Assembly (NCBI GenBank): GCA_014055525.1
Contig: WIAH01000006.1
Coordinates: forward strand, 70,104 to 134,103
Direction of reading: 5' to 3'
DNA: 64,000 nt
Source of the DNA: Nitrospira sp. CR1.3
Lineage (GTDB): Bacteria; Nitrospirota; Nitrospiria; Nitrospirales; Nitrospiraceae
In this document: positions 43,194 to 59,695 of the stretch, in pieces
How positions within the stretch are numbered: position 1 is the first letter of the stretch
How the letters are laid out: each line of letters opens with the position of its first letter
The notes under the pieces: generated by a model
The model's input: only the letters and a program-made list of their open reading frames with translations
What the model was told of the DNA's origin: nothing
Databases searched by the model: none
Translations under genes and position numbers: made by a program

Positions 43194-43308
43194 CCAACGA
43201 TATGCGGAAACACGAACTGGCCTTGCGTTGACGGATGAAGATTCGATCGGGTACGCTGCCCCTCACAATCGGCTCGCTCCACCTTCCTTACCCTGCAAGG
43301 ATGCGTTC

Positions 43309-43956
43309 ATGCGTCACGGTCGGCTGGTTGCAGCATTCAGTCTGGCGGGTCTGCTCACGTTGCTCGGCTGGACTGTGACAACCGCCGAGCCGTCCTTCGA
43401 GACGACGGCGCGATACATCCTCGAAGTCGTGAAGGCATTCCGCACGGCCTATGTGCTCCAGGTCGTCGAACATACCAGGGCAGGCGGAATGTCGCCCCAG
43501 GAAGACTGGCAGAAGGATGCCCACTTCCTGCCTCTGCCCGCGCAATTTGTGAAAGCCGCTTCGGAACAGGTGGACAGCTTCGAGATCGGACTCATCGGCC
43601 TGGCGCCGCTGAATCCCGCGAACCGTCCCAGGACCTCCGCTGAGGCGGACGCGCTGATCCAGCTGGAAAAAAACCGGGATCGGCGGTTCGTGAGCTTTGT
43701 CGACGGGAACCAGTTCAAAGCCGTATCGGCGGACCTGGCCTTGGTGCAATCTTGCGTCGATTGTCATAACCAGCATCCCCGCTCTTCACGTAAGAACTTT
43801 CAGCGATGGGATGTGATGGGCGGGCTTGTCGTTCGGCTCAAGCGCGACGTCGAACCGGAAGGTTTTTCTCTTCCGGCGGAGCCATCCAAGCGGGCCCCTG
43901 CTACGCTTGAGCGAATGACGCCTCCGCCGACGACGGCCCCTCCATGGGTCCGGTGA
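43309..43956 (+). CDS. DUF3365 (Tll0287-like) c-type haem protein
   Basis: A 215-residue secreted protein. A signal peptide (about 5-27) precedes a Tll0287-like helical domain (YILEVVKAFRTAYVLQVVEH, FLPLPAQFVKAASEQV), with one haem c site CVDCH at 149-153 and HP in CHNQHPRSS just after. A proline-rich tail ends the protein. Family members are putative redox sensors or electron carriers. It has a paralogue at the end of the two-kinase operon 10 kb away. The longer in-frame start at 43228 would precede the signal and is not used. Confidence 0.82.
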   Translation: MRHGRLVAAFSLAGLLTLLGWTVTTAEPSFETTARYILEVVKAFRTAYVLQVVEHTRAGGMSPQEDWQKDAHFLPLPAQFVKAASEQVDSFEIGLIGLAPLNPANRPRTSAEADALIQLEKNRDRRFVSFVDGNQFKAVSADLALVQSCVDCHNQHPRSSRKNFQRWDVMGGLVVRLKRDVEPEGFSLPAEPSKRAPATLERMTPPPTTAPPWVR

Positions 43957-53864: not shown

Positions 53865-54458
53865 TTATTCCAACGGAATCGTAATCGCGATTCCTCCCAT
53901 GACGTCGTTCAACTTGAAGTCCCGTTTCGGACTGAGCGGATGACTATTATGACAACTGACGCAGGCGCTGGACACAGCGCGATCCGGATACACCGCCTGA
54001 AAATACTGTTTGCGGCCGCTCGAAACGATGCCCGTCACCGGCGCATCCGCCGACCGGTTGAGCGATTCGAGCGCCTTGCGCTCGAAATCCGTCGCCGGCG
54101 CATTGCGCTGATAAATGGGGGACAGCCCGATCAATCGATAGCGGATGCCTTGGCCGCTCTCGGCGACCAGTCGGCCGGAATGTTGGAGGAATTGGGCCGG
54201 CAGGGGAAGCGCGTTGTCCTGTTCCCAATGTTCCGCCGCGGTGACCACCCCTTTCTCCTGCATGCGGTTGACGACCTGTTTCGTGTAGATCGTGCGGTCT
54301 GCCTGCAGCACGGCATGAACATAGCCGGCGACCTTCTCCGGCGGGATACCTGCCGGCGGCGGCGCCTCTTTGGCGGAGAAGGCCGCAGACCCGCTCCAGG
54401 CGAAGAATGCTAGGAACGTGACGGTTGCGGCATAACGGGAGATTCGGAGACGGTACAT
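53865..54458 (-). CDS. DUF3365 (Tll0287-like) c-type haem protein, kinase-linked
   Basis: A 197-residue exported protein with a signal peptide (about 9-29) and a Tll0287-like helical domain (VAGYVHAVLQADRTIYTKQV, LPLPAQFLQHSGRLVAES). One haem c site CVSCH lies at 166-170, with NSHP just after. Its 5' end overlaps the preceding histidine kinase gene by 49 nt, an unusually long shared stretch, so expression is tightly linked to the sensor genes. Role inferred as a periplasmic redox or ligand sensor that reports to the membrane kinase, or an electron donor. Confidence 0.85.
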   Translation of the reverse strand: MYRLRISRYAATVTFLAFFAWSGSAAFSAKEAPPPAGIPPEKVAGYVHAVLQADRTIYTKQVVNRMQEKGVVTAAEHWEQDNALPLPAQFLQHSGRLVAESGQGIRYRLIGLSPIYQRNAPATDFERKALESLNRSADAPVTGIVSSGRKQYFQAVYPDRAVSSACVSCHNSHPLSPKRDFKLNDVMGGIAITIPLE

Positions 54459-56935
54459 GGTGCCTCCTTCGACAAGGGTGGCCGGGGCGTCGCCGGAAGC
54501 GTGATGATGCAGGAGGTGCCCTGCCCCTCCACGCTCTCCAGGCGGATGTCACCGCCGAACTTTCTGACGATGCGGCGCGCGACGGTCAGACCGAGGCCCG
54601 ATCCTTCGCCTTGTCCCTTCGTCGTAAAAAACGGGTCGAAGATTTTCGACAGGTGCTGTTTGGGAATGCCCGGTCCCGAGTCGGTGATCGTCGCTGTGAC
54701 GGATTGGTCCGTCACGGAAGTCGCGAGGCGCAAGGTCCCCCGTCCCTTCATCGCCTGGATGGCGTTGAGAATAAGGTTGTTCAGCGCCTGCCTGAGCTGA
54801 TCGGGCGACGCGATGACGCAGGTATCCCCCGCGTAGCTCCGCTCGATCGTGAGGGCGGAATCATCCATGTTCGTGGTGAGCGCGGCCAGGGCCTGGTCGA
54901 GTTCCCGTTCGAGGAAGACGGTTTGCCGTTGGTCGGATGATTCGCGCGTCGTGACTCCGGTGAAATCCCTGATAATGGACGCCATGCGCCTGCCGTGCTG
55001 CACGATGTCCTGCGCGTAGGATTTGACGCGACCCAGATCTCTTTCTTCCTGAATCGCCTCTCCCAGTCCGAGAATACCGAACAGCGGATTGTTGAGTTCA
55101 TGGCCGATCCCGGCCGTGAGCACGCCCAGGCTGCCGGATTTTTCCGCCTGGATCAGATTGTCCTGCATGCGGCTGTCGTCGGTCGTGTCGCGAAGCACCA
55201 GCCCGACGCGGTCCGATTCCCCCGGTCGCCCGATGACGCGGAACCATTGATAGTGATAGAGGCGGCGCCCCAACTGGATTTCAGCCAGTCGGTTGGCCGG
55301 TTCCGTTCCGATTTGAGGCGCCAAGGGATCGCGCAGGTTTCGCCGTGATTCCGACGCTGACTCGGCGGCGGATGCAGCAGGCACCGGGACCTGCGCGGTT
55401 TGGCTCTCAAGTTCCTGTCTCAGCCGCTGCCGCTGGGACGCTTCGACCGGAAGAATGTCGAAGAGCCGCGCCGCCGTTTCGCCGTTGCTCTTCAGGTCGA
55501 ACGTTTCGCGGCCGGTCCGGTTCACATATTGTACCGATTCTTGATCGTCGACGATGAGGATGGGTGTGGGGACGGCATCGAGGATCTGGTCGGTCGATTC
55601 CTGCAGGTATTGCACCTCCTGCGTCTTCAAGGTGACCTGATCGGTCAGGCCCGCGAATGCAGCCTCCAGCTGCCGGTTCATGCGGTTGAATTCCTCGGCC
55701 AAGGTCTCGAGCTCATCGCCGGTCTTGATCTGGATGGATTGCCGTAATTCTCCGCGGCCGATGGACTGGGCCGCCTCCTGCAACTGGCGGACCGGCGTGA
55801 CGATGCGGGTGGCCGCCAGATAACCAAGCGTGGCGAGCAGCGCCACCGCGATCGAACCGAACACGGTCATCCAGGTGAACAGATGTCTGATGGGCCCGAA
55901 CAGTTCGTCTGATGATTGCCAGACGAAGGTATGCCACGACCCGACCTCCAGTTCTCCATTGGTGCTCCGGCTGGTTTCAGGAAGCGGAGAAAATCCGATG
56001 ATGGAGGAAGAGCGCCCCCCATGGCCGTCGCTCGGCGCCCTTGTCCATCCCGGATTTGGCGGCGTGACGAGCGGAATGATGCTGGCATCCGAAAGGCTGA
56101 CCCCGGTGGGAAGAATGGGACAGCTCATGACGATCCCTCGATGGTCGATCAGCATGACATGCCCGGTCTTCCCGAACCGGATGGGGTGGGTCGAAGGGGA
56201 GAAGAACTCCTTGGCGTCGATCACCCGGTGCAGCACGCCCACGGCTCCGTACCGGAGGCTGTCCATAATCGGCAGGGAGATCGAAAAGGCATAGGTGCCG
56301 GCCAGGTCATCGAAATACACATCCTCGATATACAGCTTGCCGACGCCTTTGTTATAGGCTCCTTTCCACCAGAGACTCTCGCCGTTGGAGAATTTCGGTC
56401 TCGCCGTGAGGGCTGCCACCAGCTGCCCCTCGATATCCGTGACGAACAGCATCTTTGTGGCGTGGCGGACAACCTGAGGAATGAGTTGATCCGGTTCACT
56501 CTTCGCTCCCGTGTAGTATTCACGCAGGAGGCTGGCGACGGGATTCTCGGTCACGGCTTTGACCGCGGCCGGATCCTTGGAATCCCACTTGGCCTGCTGG
56601 CCACCAAGCAAGTCGTACGGGGAGGGTGTGAGCTGGTTCTGAATGACATCGCGCCGCCGTTCTAGCTCCCGGATGACAATCGGATCTGAAGCGATCCGTG
56701 ACGTACGCGCGACCTCCTCCGCGACCAGGATATCGAGCTTTCTCGCGGCTTCCGTGGCCAGGGCCTTGAAACTTTCGCCGCTGACCTCGTGGATCTCCTT
56801 GGACCCTTGCCAAAAGGCCATGCCGAGGCCGACGAGCAGAGGGACGACCCCGACCAGCAGCATCGAGACGATCAGTTTGGTCTGCAGTCTCCATCCGCGG
56901 GTCGACGGCGCCGGCCCGCTGTCTGAGGATTTCAC
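54410..56935 (-). CDS. membrane sensor histidine kinase (dCache-HAMP-PAS-HisKA-HATPase)
   Basis: An 841-residue kinase. Helix 18-40, a long periplasmic dCache-type sensor (about 45-345, with DIEGQLVAALTARP and GKTGHVMLIDHRGIVMSCP), helix 352-375, HAMP (377-430), PAS (about 445-590, DAVPTPILIVDDQESVQYVN), and H612 in GIGHELNNPLFGILG. The ATPase boxes are NNLILNAIQAM, DSGPGIP, FDPFFTTK and GSGLGL. Its start overlaps the preceding kinase gene by 4 nt and its end overlaps the haem-protein gene. The signal is unknown. Confidence 0.92.
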   Translation of the reverse strand: MKSSDSGPAPSTRGWRLQTKLIVSMLLVGVVPLLVGLGMAFWQGSKEIHEVSGESFKALATEAARKLDILVAEEVARTSRIASDPIVIRELERRRDVIQNQLTPSPYDLLGGQQAKWDSKDPAAVKAVTENPVASLLREYYTGAKSEPDQLIPQVVRHATKMLFVTDIEGQLVAALTARPKFSNGESLWWKGAYNKGVGKLYIEDVYFDDLAGTYAFSISLPIMDSLRYGAVGVLHRVIDAKEFFSPSTHPIRFGKTGHVMLIDHRGIVMSCPILPTGVSLSDASIIPLVTPPNPGWTRAPSDGHGGRSSSIIGFSPLPETSRSTNGELEVGSWHTFVWQSSDELFGPIRHLFTWMTVFGSIAVALLATLGYLAATRIVTPVRQLQEAAQSIGRGELRQSIQIKTGDELETLAEEFNRMNRQLEAAFAGLTDQVTLKTQEVQYLQESTDQILDAVPTPILIVDDQESVQYVNRTGRETFDLKSNGETAARLFDILPVEASQRQRLRQELESQTAQVPVPAASAAESASESRRNLRDPLAPQIGTEPANRLAEIQLGRRLYHYQWFRVIGRPGESDRVGLVLRDTTDDSRMQDNLIQAEKSGSLGVLTAGIGHELNNPLFGILGLGEAIQEERDLGRVKSYAQDIVQHGRRMASIIRDFTGVTTRESSDQRQTVFLERELDQALAALTTNMDDSALTIERSYAGDTCVIASPDQLRQALNNLILNAIQAMKGRGTLRLATSVTDQSVTATITDSGPGIPKQHLSKIFDPFFTTKGQGEGSGLGLTVARRIVRKFGGDIRLESVEGQGTSCIITLPATPRPPLSKEAPCTVSESPVMPQPSRS

Positions 56936-58035
56936 GGCGGAGCCTCTTCCGACGAAGGTAATGTGATCGTGATCGTCGTTCCTTCGTCCACACGGCTGTC
57001 CACGGCGATCTTACCGATCATTTTGTTGACGATGGTCTTTACGTTATAGAGCCCCAACCCAGTGCCTTTCCCCGGCCCTTTTGTAGTAAAGAACGGCTCG
57101 AAGATCCGGCTCAACACCTCCGGCGGCATGCCGCAGCCCGTATCGGCGATGCTCACGCTGGTCGCGCCGCCGCCTGCTCTTGTCGTCATCGTCAATGTGC
57201 CGCCTCCCTGATCCATCGCGTGGACCGCATTGGTGATGAGGTTGACGAACACATGCAGGAGCTCGTCCGGATTGCCCTTCACGTCGACGCCGGCCTCGTA
57301 CTGTTTGACGACCGTGATGTCGTGGAAGCTGGCCGCATATCGGGCGATTTTGAGCGCTTCGTCCAATATGCCGTTCAGCCAGACCACGACGTCGTCGCGG
57401 GCGGACGTCTTGCGCGCATACTGAGTGAGGTCCCGGCTGATGGCGCTGGTCCGCTTCACCGCCTCCACGATCTCCATGGCCTGCTCATGGACGGTCTTGA
57501 TGTCGGTCTCGTCCACCAGATTTTCAGCCAGTCCGAGAATCAACTGGAGGGGATTGTTGATGTCATGAGCGATGCCGGCGGCGAAGTGGCCGATGCCCGC
57601 CAGCTTTTCCGCATGAAACAATTCGGCTTGAAGATTGGCTTCGTGGCGGACCAGCTCCCAGAGGACTCGCGAGGCTGTTCCACTCAACACGTCGGCGCCC
57701 GGGCGTCGATGAAGATGGATGACCCGCTCCATCTGGGGGTCGCCGGTGACGTCCATGATCAGGTTGACGCCGTGGTTGGCGATCAATTCTTCGGCCTGTT
57801 CCGTGACGGGGATTTTGAGATCGCGGGCGCGCTGAAGGCCCGGCGCCTGGCTGTCGCGGTCGGCAATGCCGATGATCTCAATCGAGGGGATCCGATAGAG
57901 CAGATCGAGCAGTGCGGTCCCTCCGCGTCCGGCCCCGAGGATCGCCACTTTGGTCGGCGCAAGGGTCGATACCACCGCGCTGTCCGTCAAGTCCCGCACG
58001 GGGCTTCTCCAGAAGGATGGGGAGGACCGTTCCAC
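56932..58035 (-). CDS. soluble histidine kinase with N-terminal Rossmann-like domain
   Basis: A 367-residue protein without membrane helices. Residues 28-120 form a Rossmann-like unit ([57 protein letters not shown]) like the NAD-binding half of Gfo/Idh or homoserine-dehydrogenase proteins. H157 in [17 protein letters not shown] and the boxes [28 protein letters not shown] and GTGLGL make it an intact kinase. A dinucleotide-sensing kinase is the natural reading. It lies between a response regulator gene and the membrane kinase gene. Confidence 0.88.
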
Positions 58036-58073
58036 GACCCTCCCCTGGACATCCTAGGCGTTCTACGCACTGA

Positions 58074-58508
58074 TTACAAATGGGCGAGTTCGCGCTGATC
58101 CATCGCTCGCGCGACCGATTCGCGGAGCTTCTCTCCCTCGACCGGTTTCACGAGATAGTCGACGACGCCCTGGCGCAGCATCGAGGTCGCCATGTCCGTA
58201 TCCGGGAATCCCGTCAGGACGATGAGCGGCACACGGGGGTAATTGCTGCGGAAGTAGGCGATAGCTTCGACGCCGTTGATCTTCGGCATGCGAATGTCGC
58301 AAATCACGACATCGAGGAGCAGCCTGTTTTCGCCGGCATTGATGGTCTCGATCGCCTTCTCGCCGTTCTCGGCCTCCAGCACATCATACCCTGCCTTTTG
58401 CAGAGTCATGCGCACCACCTTTCGGATGTCCGCTTCGTCGTCAACGACGAGGATGCGCCCATTGGTGGCCTTGTCTCCCATGAAAAATCCAGATGTGAAT
58501 TCCGCCAT
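58074..58508 (-). CDS. single-domain response regulator (CheY-like)
   Basis: A 144-residue receiver domain without an output domain. VVDDEAD holds the acidic pocket, D71 (VVICDIRMP) is the phosphorylation site, with T99 in LTGF and K121 in VKPV. It likely shuttles phosphate or acts by protein contact, perhaps accepting phosphate from the two downstream kinases. RBS AAGGAGG lies 6 nt before the ATG. It is the first gene of the four-gene cluster. Confidence 0.92.
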   Translation of the reverse strand: MAEFTSGFFMGDKATNGRILVVDDEADIRKVVRMTLQKAGYDVLEAENGEKAIETINAGENRLLLDVVICDIRMPKINGVEAIAYFRSNYPRVPLIVLTGFPDTDMATSMLRQGVVDYLVKPVEGEKLRESVARAMDQRELAHL

Positions 58509-59122
58509 GATGTCCTCCTTGTGAATGATGAGTTCCAGGTTGCGGTTTTGATTTCCCTCGACGGCCCTGTCTCCTGCCTACGGGGGAGAGCAACCGGTGT
58601 GCCACTGCAGGTAACGCTCAGACTGGCTGATTCTCGCGGGCTTATGCGCAACTGACGGTAGAGGCCCACATGCCGAGTGGTTCGTATCCACCATCGTAGA
58701 GTGAAATGCACCACCAGAAGCCTTTTCCTTGTTCGCCGGCATCATTCTCTTCATGATGCTTCACCAGATGCGTCGAAGTAGGAGCAAGGAACTGAGCAAC
58801 ACGCTCACGGCTGTCAGGGTCATGATGGTGGACATGGGATGCCTCCTCTCAGAGTTTCTTTATCTAACGGACCGCTATACCAAGATTCATACCACAGGAA
58901 GAATTTCTCACCCGTTCGCTAAGTCGGCTTCTTTCCTGACGGTTTTTGAATTGACTCGGTCCATCGTGGAGGATCTGACGTCATCGTGGGGGGATCAAAA
59001 TCGATTCAATGTGAATCTGTTCCATGCCTCCAATTGACTCCGGGCCTTTGCCGGCGAAGAGCCCCCGGTGGAAATTGCCTTTATCAAAGCTGCTACGGTA
59101 TTCTCTCGCCAGAGAAGGCATT
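58509..59122. other. gap of about 600 bp between the response regulator and bolA
   Basis: Apart from the 24-residue peptide, no well-supported gene is visible. On the minus strand, after the peptide, a frame of about 51 codons (MKRMMPANKEKASGG...) continues to 58582, but it lacks a ribosome-binding site and a recognisable fold. The 5' part of the region carries the promoter of the two-kinase operon. Confidence 0.4.
58761..58835 (-). CDS. 24-residue putative membrane peptide
   Basis: A very short gene encoding MSTIMTLTAVSVLLSSLLLL followed by RRIW. The hydrophobic run (about 5-20) fits one membrane helix with a positively charged C-terminus. The ATG is preceded by GAGAGGAGG, one of the best ribosome-binding sites in the window. 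It lies in the gap between the response regulator and bolA. No homologue is recognised. Confidence 0.5.
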   Translation of the reverse strand: MSTIMTLTAVSVLLSSLLLLRRIW

Positions 59123-59362
59123 GTGATTACCGCTGAGACATTGACCGACTACATCAAGCGCGCGATGCCGGATGCTGCCGTGACGATGACGGACCGGACC
59201 GGGACGATGGATCACCTAAAAGTCATCGTGATCTCAGAGGCATTTCGAGGGAAGAATCTGCTCGACCGGCATCGCTTGATCTATCAGGCGCTTGATGTTC
59301 CGTTAAAAGACGGGCGTATCCATGCCCTGGAACTCACGGCGCGGACAAAGGACGAATCATAG
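59123..59362 (+). CDS. BolA family protein
   Basis: From the GTG chosen here the product has 79 residues: AETLTDYIKRAMPDAAVTMT, then DHLKVIVISEAFRGKNLLDR and LIYQALDVP, which is the BolA core. AGAGAAGG lies 4 nt before the start. The ATG at 59024 would add 33 residues of unlikely sequence. BolA proteins bridge Fe-S clusters with CGFS glutaredoxins; the next gene encodes such a protein, 9 bp downstream. Confidence 0.88.
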   Translation: MITAETLTDYIKRAMPDAAVTMTDRTGTMDHLKVIVISEAFRGKNLLDRHRLIYQALDVPLKDGRIHALELTARTKDES

Positions 59363-59371
59363 GAGGGGACC

Positions 59372-59695
59372 ATGGCCGACCAGATCCAGGACGAAATCCA
59401 AAAAGAAATCGCGGCGAATAAAATTCTGATCTACGGCAAGGGCACGAAGACCATGCCGATGTGCGGATTCACCAGGGAGACGATGCAGTTTTTCGACAAG
59501 TACGGCTATCCGTATGAGTTGATAGATGTTCTCTCGCAGCCGGCCAAGCGCGAGGCGCTGACTAAGATGACGAACTGGCCCACCCTTCCAAAAGTCTTCA
59601 TCGACGGGCAGTTCTACGGCGACACGGATATCCTGGATCCGATGGCGGCCAAAGGTGAGATAGAGCCGCTGCTGAAGAAAGCCTTCGGAAAGTAG
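59372..59695 (+). CDS. grxD: monothiol glutaredoxin (Grx4/GrxD family), CGFT variant
   Basis: A 107-residue monothiol glutaredoxin with the KGTKTMPMCGFTRE active site (C31) and NWPTLPKVFIDGQFYGDTDI. The family motif is CGFS; here the last residue is threonine, and the GGCD/GGSD motif is replaced by GDTD. These changes affect residues near glutathione and the Fe-S cluster, so cluster handling may differ. The pair with BolA suggests an Fe-S transfer complex. RBS AGGAGGGG lies 6 nt before the ATG. Confidence 0.9.
   Translation: MADQIQDEIQKEIAANKILIYGKGTKTMPMCGFTRETMQFFDKYGYPYELIDVLSQPAKREALTKMTNWPTLPKVFIDGQFYGDTDILDPMAAKGEIEPLLKKAFGK

Follow-up and report, generated by a model that had tools for sequence, protein, structure and literature searches.

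A four-gene signalling cassette is encoded on the minus strand of a 64,000-nucleotide stretch of DNA from Nitrospira sp. CR1.3 (contig WIAH01000006.1; hereafter, the window), and its genes form one conserved unit. In order, they code for a receiver that lacks an output domain (RR), a soluble histidine kinase with a Rossmann domain (RHK), a membrane histidine kinase with a periplasmic dCache domain (dCHK) and a stand-alone haem c protein of the sCache_heme family (HEM). Our tentative reading, which we place somewhat short of probable, is that two inputs converge on RR: RHK would read a dinucleotide, while dCHK, together with HEM, would read a nitric oxide (NO) or redox signal in the periplasm. 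In this proposal, we infer the ligands, the contact between HEM and the dCache domain, and the phosphotransfer.

The gene order was counted in a collection of named genomes, of which the best 80 of 227 relatives were kept; these are mostly labelled Nitrospira or Nitrospirota, with a bias to close relatives, and such sampling under-counts rarer architectures and distant taxa. A called RHK orthologue was obtained for 72 of the 80 loci (the RHK of L043 and L080, which belong to one genome, was not called separately and was left out of the counts), and 49 of these had enough flank. RR is present in 48 of the 49, dCHK in 48 and all four genes, in order, in 45, an arrangement that is far from chance, as it is complete and ordered in nearly all loci with room to show it. 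The preliminary description of this DNA had proposed a single operon, for which conservation of the gene order was the test set beforehand; as the order recurs in relatives, the claim was not refuted. Complete cassettes are carried by Candidatus N. defluvii (L087) and by N. moscoviensis (L115). The 40 fetched stretches show the same order repeatedly, both across the window's family, where many genomes have it, and in another family of the order (f3; L059, L063 and L068). The overlap between RHK and dCHK measures exactly 4 nt at 20 of the 48 loci, and dCHK and HEM overlap in 44 of 45 when the first possible start codon is taken. The four incomplete loci are L118, L120, L135 and L138; HEM is absent from L135 and L138, and none was found in L118, which counts against the reading outlined above.

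In the window, the four open reading frames (ORFs) lie where they had first been described, with the overlaps of 4 nt (RHK/dCHK) and 49 nt (dCHK/HEM) then given (Table 1). The 38-bp gap reported between RR and RHK holds only if RHK begins at the listed GTG (58035). Since the starts of the orthologues align at GTG 57999 and, in L040 (whose RHK is 81% identical), the codon at the earlier position is not a start, we consider that RHK probably begins at GTG 57999, which would leave a gap of 74 nt. A hydropathy scan detected no hydrophobic segment in RHK and two in dCHK (residues 21-39 and 352-370), and two are likewise found in dCHK from 67 of 69 cassettes. The domain matches also agree with the earlier identification of dCHK as a dCache membrane kinase, as dCache_1 is above its cut-off and HAMP, HisKA and HATPase_c are present, and with that of HEM as a haem c protein of a sensor family, given its Tll0287-like match and its one CxxCH motif.

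Table 1. Features of the RR-RHK-dCHK-HEM cassette in the window, and receivers with an inserted Rossmann domain found elsewhere
Feature	Position	Strand	Description
RR	58074-58508	minus	Single-domain receiver, 144 aa, without output domain; Pfam Response_reg 4.2e-28
RNA hairpin, RR-RHK spacer	58019-58045	minus	12-bp stem including two G-U pairs
RHK	56932-58035	minus	Soluble histidine kinase, 367 aa from listed GTG 58035; HisKA 2.1e-9, HATPase_c 4.1e-27
RHK Rossmann domain	57661-57957	minus	Residues about 27-125; GAGRGG loop, Asp (residue 59) ending strand 2
RHK HisKA and HATPase_c core	56953-57588	minus	Pfam
dCHK	54410-56935	minus	Membrane histidine kinase, 841 aa; dCache-HAMP-PAS-HisKA-HATPase_c, Pfam including PAS_8
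dCache_1 match, periplasmic loop of dCHK	56117-56446	minus	Pfam 47.1 bits, cut-off 45
dCHK HisKA and HATPase_c core	54488-55123	minus	Pfam
HEM	53865-54458	minus	197 aa, stand-alone sCache_heme; Pfam Tll0287-like (PF11845) 71.8 bits against a cut-off of 24.1, 1.1e-19
HEM haem c motif CVSCH	53949-53963	minus	Residues 166-170; holds both Cys of HEM
Inserted receivers	L072, L076, L077/L137, L075/L139, L125, L132, L141 (68-928), L144, L145, L156 (1705-2634)		

RR is a lone receiver, as had been claimed: its length is that of a receiver, Pfam recognised no second domain in it, and its catalytic residues are kept in 87 unique sequences, with D23, D24, the phospho-acceptor D71, T99 and K121 each at 100%, gaps aside. 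As it is without an output domain, it would have to act on another protein, either in a CheY-like manner or in a relay. The spacer that separates it from RHK holds an RNA hairpin that is conserved across the family: the inverted repeat found between the RR stop and the start of the Rossmann domain drifts in sequence while its pairing is kept, and 36 of the 89 unique spacers contain a perfect stem of at least 10 bp, compared with a mean of 0.7 (maximum of 3) over 20 rounds of dinucleotide shuffles and with none of 88 coding controls of equal length. The window's own hairpin, into which GTG 58035 falls, is not significant alone (z of -1.11), and this must be set against the general trend; the hairpins of L040 (z of -3.58) and L098 (z of -3.25) are both significant, and the stretch of L041 used for the folding z-score did not include its hairpin. 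The effect of this structure would probably be to set the level of RR above that of the kinase.

The cassette may be considered a variant of two-component signalling in which most of the novelty lies with the Rossmann module. RHK had been described as a cytoplasmic Rossmann kinase, in agreement with its lack of hydrophobic segments and with its NAD-type features, as the glycine loop (GxGxxG) and the Asp of strand 2 are invariant in 60 of 60 RHKs. When profiles were compared with the PDB, the nearest relatives were acylating acetaldehyde dehydrogenases (6.5e-5), followed by Rex (0.002). Rex is an NADH-responsive, redox-sensing repressor; the RHK domain resembles its Rossmann domain in the glycine loop and the acid of strand 2, but RHK is without a winged-helix DNA-binding domain (Pfam), and its Rossmann domain drives a kinase and, in other proteins, other outputs. 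In the AlphaFold (AF2) model of RHK, the mean predicted local distance difference test score (pLDDT) is 86, and values above 90 are reached in most 10-residue blocks of the Rossmann domain.

This domain might, instead, be a structural relic, a dimerisation module or a binder of another nucleotide (AMP, SAM or similar) and sense no dinucleotide at all. Such a possibility is consistent with the Pfam matches of RHK, which are sub-threshold (DapB_N at 20.9 bits against 25.6, and GFO_IDH likewise), and with the Foldseek searches made with the whole RHK and inserted-receiver models, for each of which only receivers (including multi-domain response regulators) and kinases were found among the 50 matches listed. 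We nevertheless regard it as unlikely, as the glycine loop and the strand-2 Asp do not vary, the domain occupies the sensor position on several types of output, and its nearest solved relatives (Rex and acetaldehyde dehydrogenase) bind NAD(H). We propose instead, with some reserve and as a possibility rather than a probability, that the Rossmann domain of RHK is a portable and previously undescribed cytoplasmic sensor of dinucleotide (energy or redox) state, that the receivers into which it is inserted would be gated directly by a metabolite, without a kinase, and that the cassette, with its split periplasmic haem sensor, would be devoted in nitrite oxidisers to integrating nitrogen oxides against NADH. 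A literature search, whose coverage left subscription journals mostly outside, gave no paper among the matches listed that treats the cassette or the Rossmann domain.

The domain is also present in other kinds of signalling protein. A Rossmann query found matches in each of the 61 genomes of the order, with more than one architecture represented, and 249 of 395 genomes of the phylum have a match at 1e-6, although weak matches may be enzymes. Architectures were surveyed in the ORFs of 14 chosen genomes, with Pfam or NCBIfam applied to L176, L181, L182, L189 and L073 and the others read by eye. The domain precedes HisKA, HisKA_3, GAF-GGDEF, GGDEF-EAL and sigma-54 modules, and stands before GAF-PAS stretches in L174, L175, L177 and L178, the N-terminal parts of which were seen. 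Among four homologues on other outputs that were checked, L182 and L197 pass the cut-offs of NAD_binding_3, GFO_IDH_MocA or DapB_N, while L176 and L181 are below them. In other members of the phylum, the domain is joined to sigma-54 activators (L182, L183, L184 and L194) and to GAF-GGDEF modules (L176, L186, L189, L191-L193, L195 and L196). Another kinase with a Rossmann domain, of the HisKA_3 type (Pfam on L073 only), adjoins a LuxR-type response regulator in L073 (9409-11239; C25 of the window's own genome), L074, L078 and L079; the genes that precede it in L073, L078 and L079 are presumably glyA and nrdR, as they read like these. Outside the phylum, where the search covered a plasmid collection, the N-terminal part of L182 gave one match in 72,556 records. 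In L197 (2998-3780), from Acetoanaerobium noterae (Bacillota; NZ_CP154629.1, a record classed as a plasmid but, at 2.6 Mb, of chromosome size), the Rossmann domain is fused to a methyl-accepting chemotaxis protein (MCP) signalling domain.

In nine sequences (L137 is the same contig as L077; loci with such receivers are listed in Table 1), the Rossmann domain interrupts an RR-like receiver between strand 4 and helix 4. The insert carries a helix and, in several of them, also the SEKLA-like stretch with which the kinase dimerisation domain begins. Eight of the nine retain the phospho-acceptor Asp (it is Asn in L141) and all nine the Thr and the Lys, and an N-terminal segment reads as a membrane helix in L125, L145 and L156. 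In L156, from a record that is labelled Gammaproteobacteria and is probably mis-binned, a HEM gene directly follows that of the inserted receiver, and in L141 an inserted receiver is encoded on the same contig as a cassette; this is the best independent sign that the Rossmann domain, the receiver and the haem protein share one signalling logic. In the model of the inserted receiver (nine sequences; mean pLDDT of 70), one helix (203-232) runs from the Rossmann domain into helix 4 of the receiver, but this continuity is only a suggestion of the model, because pLDDT is under 50 at the junction (residues 201-205 and 217-229). The proposal above of receivers gated by a metabolite does not include a continuous helix, and the odds given to it were left unchanged by the weak junction.

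On the periplasmic side, HEM is a one-domain protein without fusion to transmembrane helices, HAMP or signalling modules, dCHK being a separate protein. Its N-terminus looks like a signal peptide by eye, and the hydropathy scan gives one over-threshold segment in 45 of 69 cassette HEMs; judged from these features, the protein is probably exported, with the reservation that the window's own HEM has no such segment. The only Cys in HEM are the two of CxxCH, hence there is no axial Cys. The same is true of 67 of 69 cassettes, while the other two, both from one genome (L044/L081), end before the motif. Of 77 HEM-like proteins in a broader set, 74 are without an extra Cys, one has a single extra Cys and two end early. 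As the axial Cys is missing, the sixth position of the haem may be open or weakly held, and HEM may bind NO or report redox state.

The DUF3365/Tll0287 family, to which HEM belongs (PF11845, with the family cut-off passed), was defined as sCache_heme in PMC12889525. There, a tested signalling member (Target 2 type, which is marked by slow NO release and the lack of a stable O2 complex) has no axial Cys, binds NO and releases it slowly (6.25e-4 per s), whereas the stand-alone redox-type members (Tll0287 and P. putida Target 1) have an axial Cys that gives Cys/His ligation. HEM has the CxxCH motif and, like the NO-binding member, no axial Cys, in which it differs from the stand-alone type; unlike the signalling members, it is not fused to signalling modules, its tie to signalling being the operon that it shares with a dCache kinase. 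The preliminary description had held that this haem family senses redox state or small ligands, a view that is refined by the binding of NO in the signalling member and the redox-like behaviour of the tested stand-alone one (PMC12889525). No match was obtained when the PDB was searched with the sequence of HEM alone; its profile placed 5b82 first at a weak E of 1, in an alignment that was too short, and started too far along, for the axial residue to be located.

Several observations weigh against the proposed role of HEM. The tested stand-alone member is redox-like, and a C59A variant, which is without the axial Cys, still releases NO fast, so that the missing Cys alone is not proof of NO sensing (PMC12889525). 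Moreover, by eye, none of the eight sCache_heme proteins of the window's own genome has a Cys outside CxxCH in the domain. The missing Cys is consequently not special to the cassette, and the stand-alone members of this genome differ generally from the stand-alone example of PMC12889525. In an alternative view, HEM would only share the transcript, as a small cytochrome for redox reactions or electron transfer or else as a target, and dCHK would sense an ordinary small ligand through dCache alone. The redox-like behaviour of the tested stand-alone member would fit this explanation, as would the several other stand-alone copies of Nitrospira genomes (eight domains here), some of which by eye adjoin non-signalling genes (L164 and L165). 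By contrast, the HEM of the cassette has the same genomic partner in two families, the beginning of its gene overlaps the end of dCHK, its distances track those of dCHK (see below), and the axial Cys by which the tested redox-type protein is ligated is missing from it. We judge mere co-transcription to be improbable, and prefer to see the dCache domain of dCHK and the exported HEM as a putative split sensor.

Two further loci of the window's genome hold members of this family. In L160 (C27, 3352-10444), a stand-alone sCache_heme gene is followed by genes for CheY, CheW, MCP and CheA, a cluster that constitutes another link of stand-alone members to signalling. In the window itself, a further Tll0287-like protein (43.2 bits) is encoded at 43228-43956 on the plus strand, and is not beside recognised signalling genes.

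The cassette seems to be built from two modules. The best reading is that RR and RHK are a core that is able to occur alone, as they do, without dCHK and HEM, in L064 and L070, and that dCHK and HEM are an added periplasmic arm. Partial correlations of pairwise distances, calculated with the 62 non-redundant cassettes of 69, are consistent with such a division: the correlation is 0.38 between RR and the RHK core, compared with 0.17 between RR and the dCHK core, and HEM correlates with the parts of dCHK (0.21-0.29), and at 0.05 and -0.06 with the RHK core and the Rossmann domain, respectively. The highest correlation of all pairs, 0.47, is that between the cores of RHK and dCHK. The haem protein had been paired with both kinases in the preliminary description; the part concerning dCHK stands, as their distances co-vary, and that concerning RHK does not, since RR-RHK occurs without dCHK-HEM.

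Both kinases keep their catalytic motifs across the 69 cassettes. In RHK, the H, N and G1 boxes are found in all 69, F in 68 and G2 in 65; in dCHK, the H box is found in 68 and G2 in 69, N and G1 in 67 and 68 (with loosened patterns) and F in 58 (with a strict pattern), and the motif H[ED].NNP in 68. A search of the window's own genome with the RHK core gave 29 matches, including itself; among the 28 others, dCHK ranked first (39% identity), ahead of one at 38%. When 20 other cores were aligned (dCHK and 19 more), dCHK was also the nearest to RHK in the dimerisation domain (37%, compared with 32% for the next). The margins of dCHK over other kinases are small.

The two kinases could, however, belong to separate two-component systems on one transcript, in which RHK would act on RR and dCHK, with HEM, would phosphorylate another regulator, e.g., a sigma-54 response regulator. 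In L065 (same contig as L159, of one genome), RR and RHK are followed by a sigma-54 regulator and then by a dCache protein, truncated where the contig ends, which may have another target. The lower correlation of RR with the dCHK core than with the RHK core points in the same direction, as does the best NCBIfam match of dCHK, AtoS, although AtoS is the best match of RHK as well. The partner of AtoS, AtoC, is a sigma-54 regulator. On the other hand, no second regulator stands between the genes of complete four-gene cassettes, and dCHK is, by score and in the dimerisation domain, the paralogue nearest to the RHK core, with which it has the highest correlation. We find two separate systems rather doubtful, and continue to prefer the convergence of both kinases on RR. 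Nonetheless, and apart from the arrangement in L065/L159, this preference must be tempered by other observations: there are untidy links (0.35 between the RHK core and the PAS of dCHK, and 0.24 between Rossmann and Cache domains); L200 (43%) and L166 (42%) are nearer to RHK in the catalytic domain than dCHK is (39%; 20 cores aligned); and distance correlations, for which adjacency of the genes and common descent are confounders (neighbours can share a history by recombination), are support and not proof.

Compared with kinases of the AtoS/ZraS type, which are also HisKA kinases, both kinases score best with AtoS and have ZraS in the top four, far under the curated cut-offs, but they have other sensor domains and occur here with an output-less receiver. 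In five cassettes of the order, a third kinase, of about 830-940 aa, is encoded directly before RR: L059 (9827-12463; family f3), L127, L133, L140 and L141. In L059, it has receiver, PAS, GAF and HATPase_c domains (receiver-PAS-GAF-PAS type); in the other four, it was named by similarity only.

Taken together, we propose the following mechanism. The Rossmann domain of RHK would read a metabolite of the dinucleotide type, most probably the NAD+/NADH state, and RHK would control RR, the product of the first cistron. Outside the membrane, HEM would take the role of a periplasmic binding protein for the dCache domain. Both kinases would probably act on RR, by adding or removing phosphate, and phosphorylated RR would, in this way, integrate an outside nitrogen-oxide or redox signal with internal reducing power. 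There are precedents for the periplasmic half of this arrangement: in TorT-TorS, LuxP-LuxQ and ChvE-VirA, a periplasmic binding protein assists a histidine kinase. By analogy, the cassette would resemble them in that the gene of a distinct exported protein adjoins that of a membrane kinase whose sensor domain is periplasmic; it differs from them in that the putative partner is a haem c Cache protein.

To our knowledge, little is understood of the ways in which nitrite oxidisers detect nitrogen oxides and set them against the costly production of NADH. NO or redox state would be a useful signal for these organisms, if HEM binds the former or reports the latter, and the cassette may let the cell weigh outside conditions (perhaps NO or redox) against its own energy state. 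Its conservation in Nitrospira and in neighbouring families makes it a candidate regulator, open to testing. A portable Rossmann domain would, in addition, give several kinds of bacterial signalling proteins a cytoplasmic metabolic input. TIGR03479 was tried as a marker of nitrite oxidoreductase and dropped, as it matched 37 of 61 genomes, none above the cut-off, and also 4 of 14 controls.

Scans of the DNA for promoters and terminators gave no more than expected (0 sites compared with 1.7, and 3 compared with 4.8, respectively). Divergent to the cassette, on the plus strand, lies a BolA-glutaredoxin gene pair (59024-59362 and 59372-59695), which occupies the same place in many relatives; the intergenic region between this pair and the cassette may hold shared promoters.

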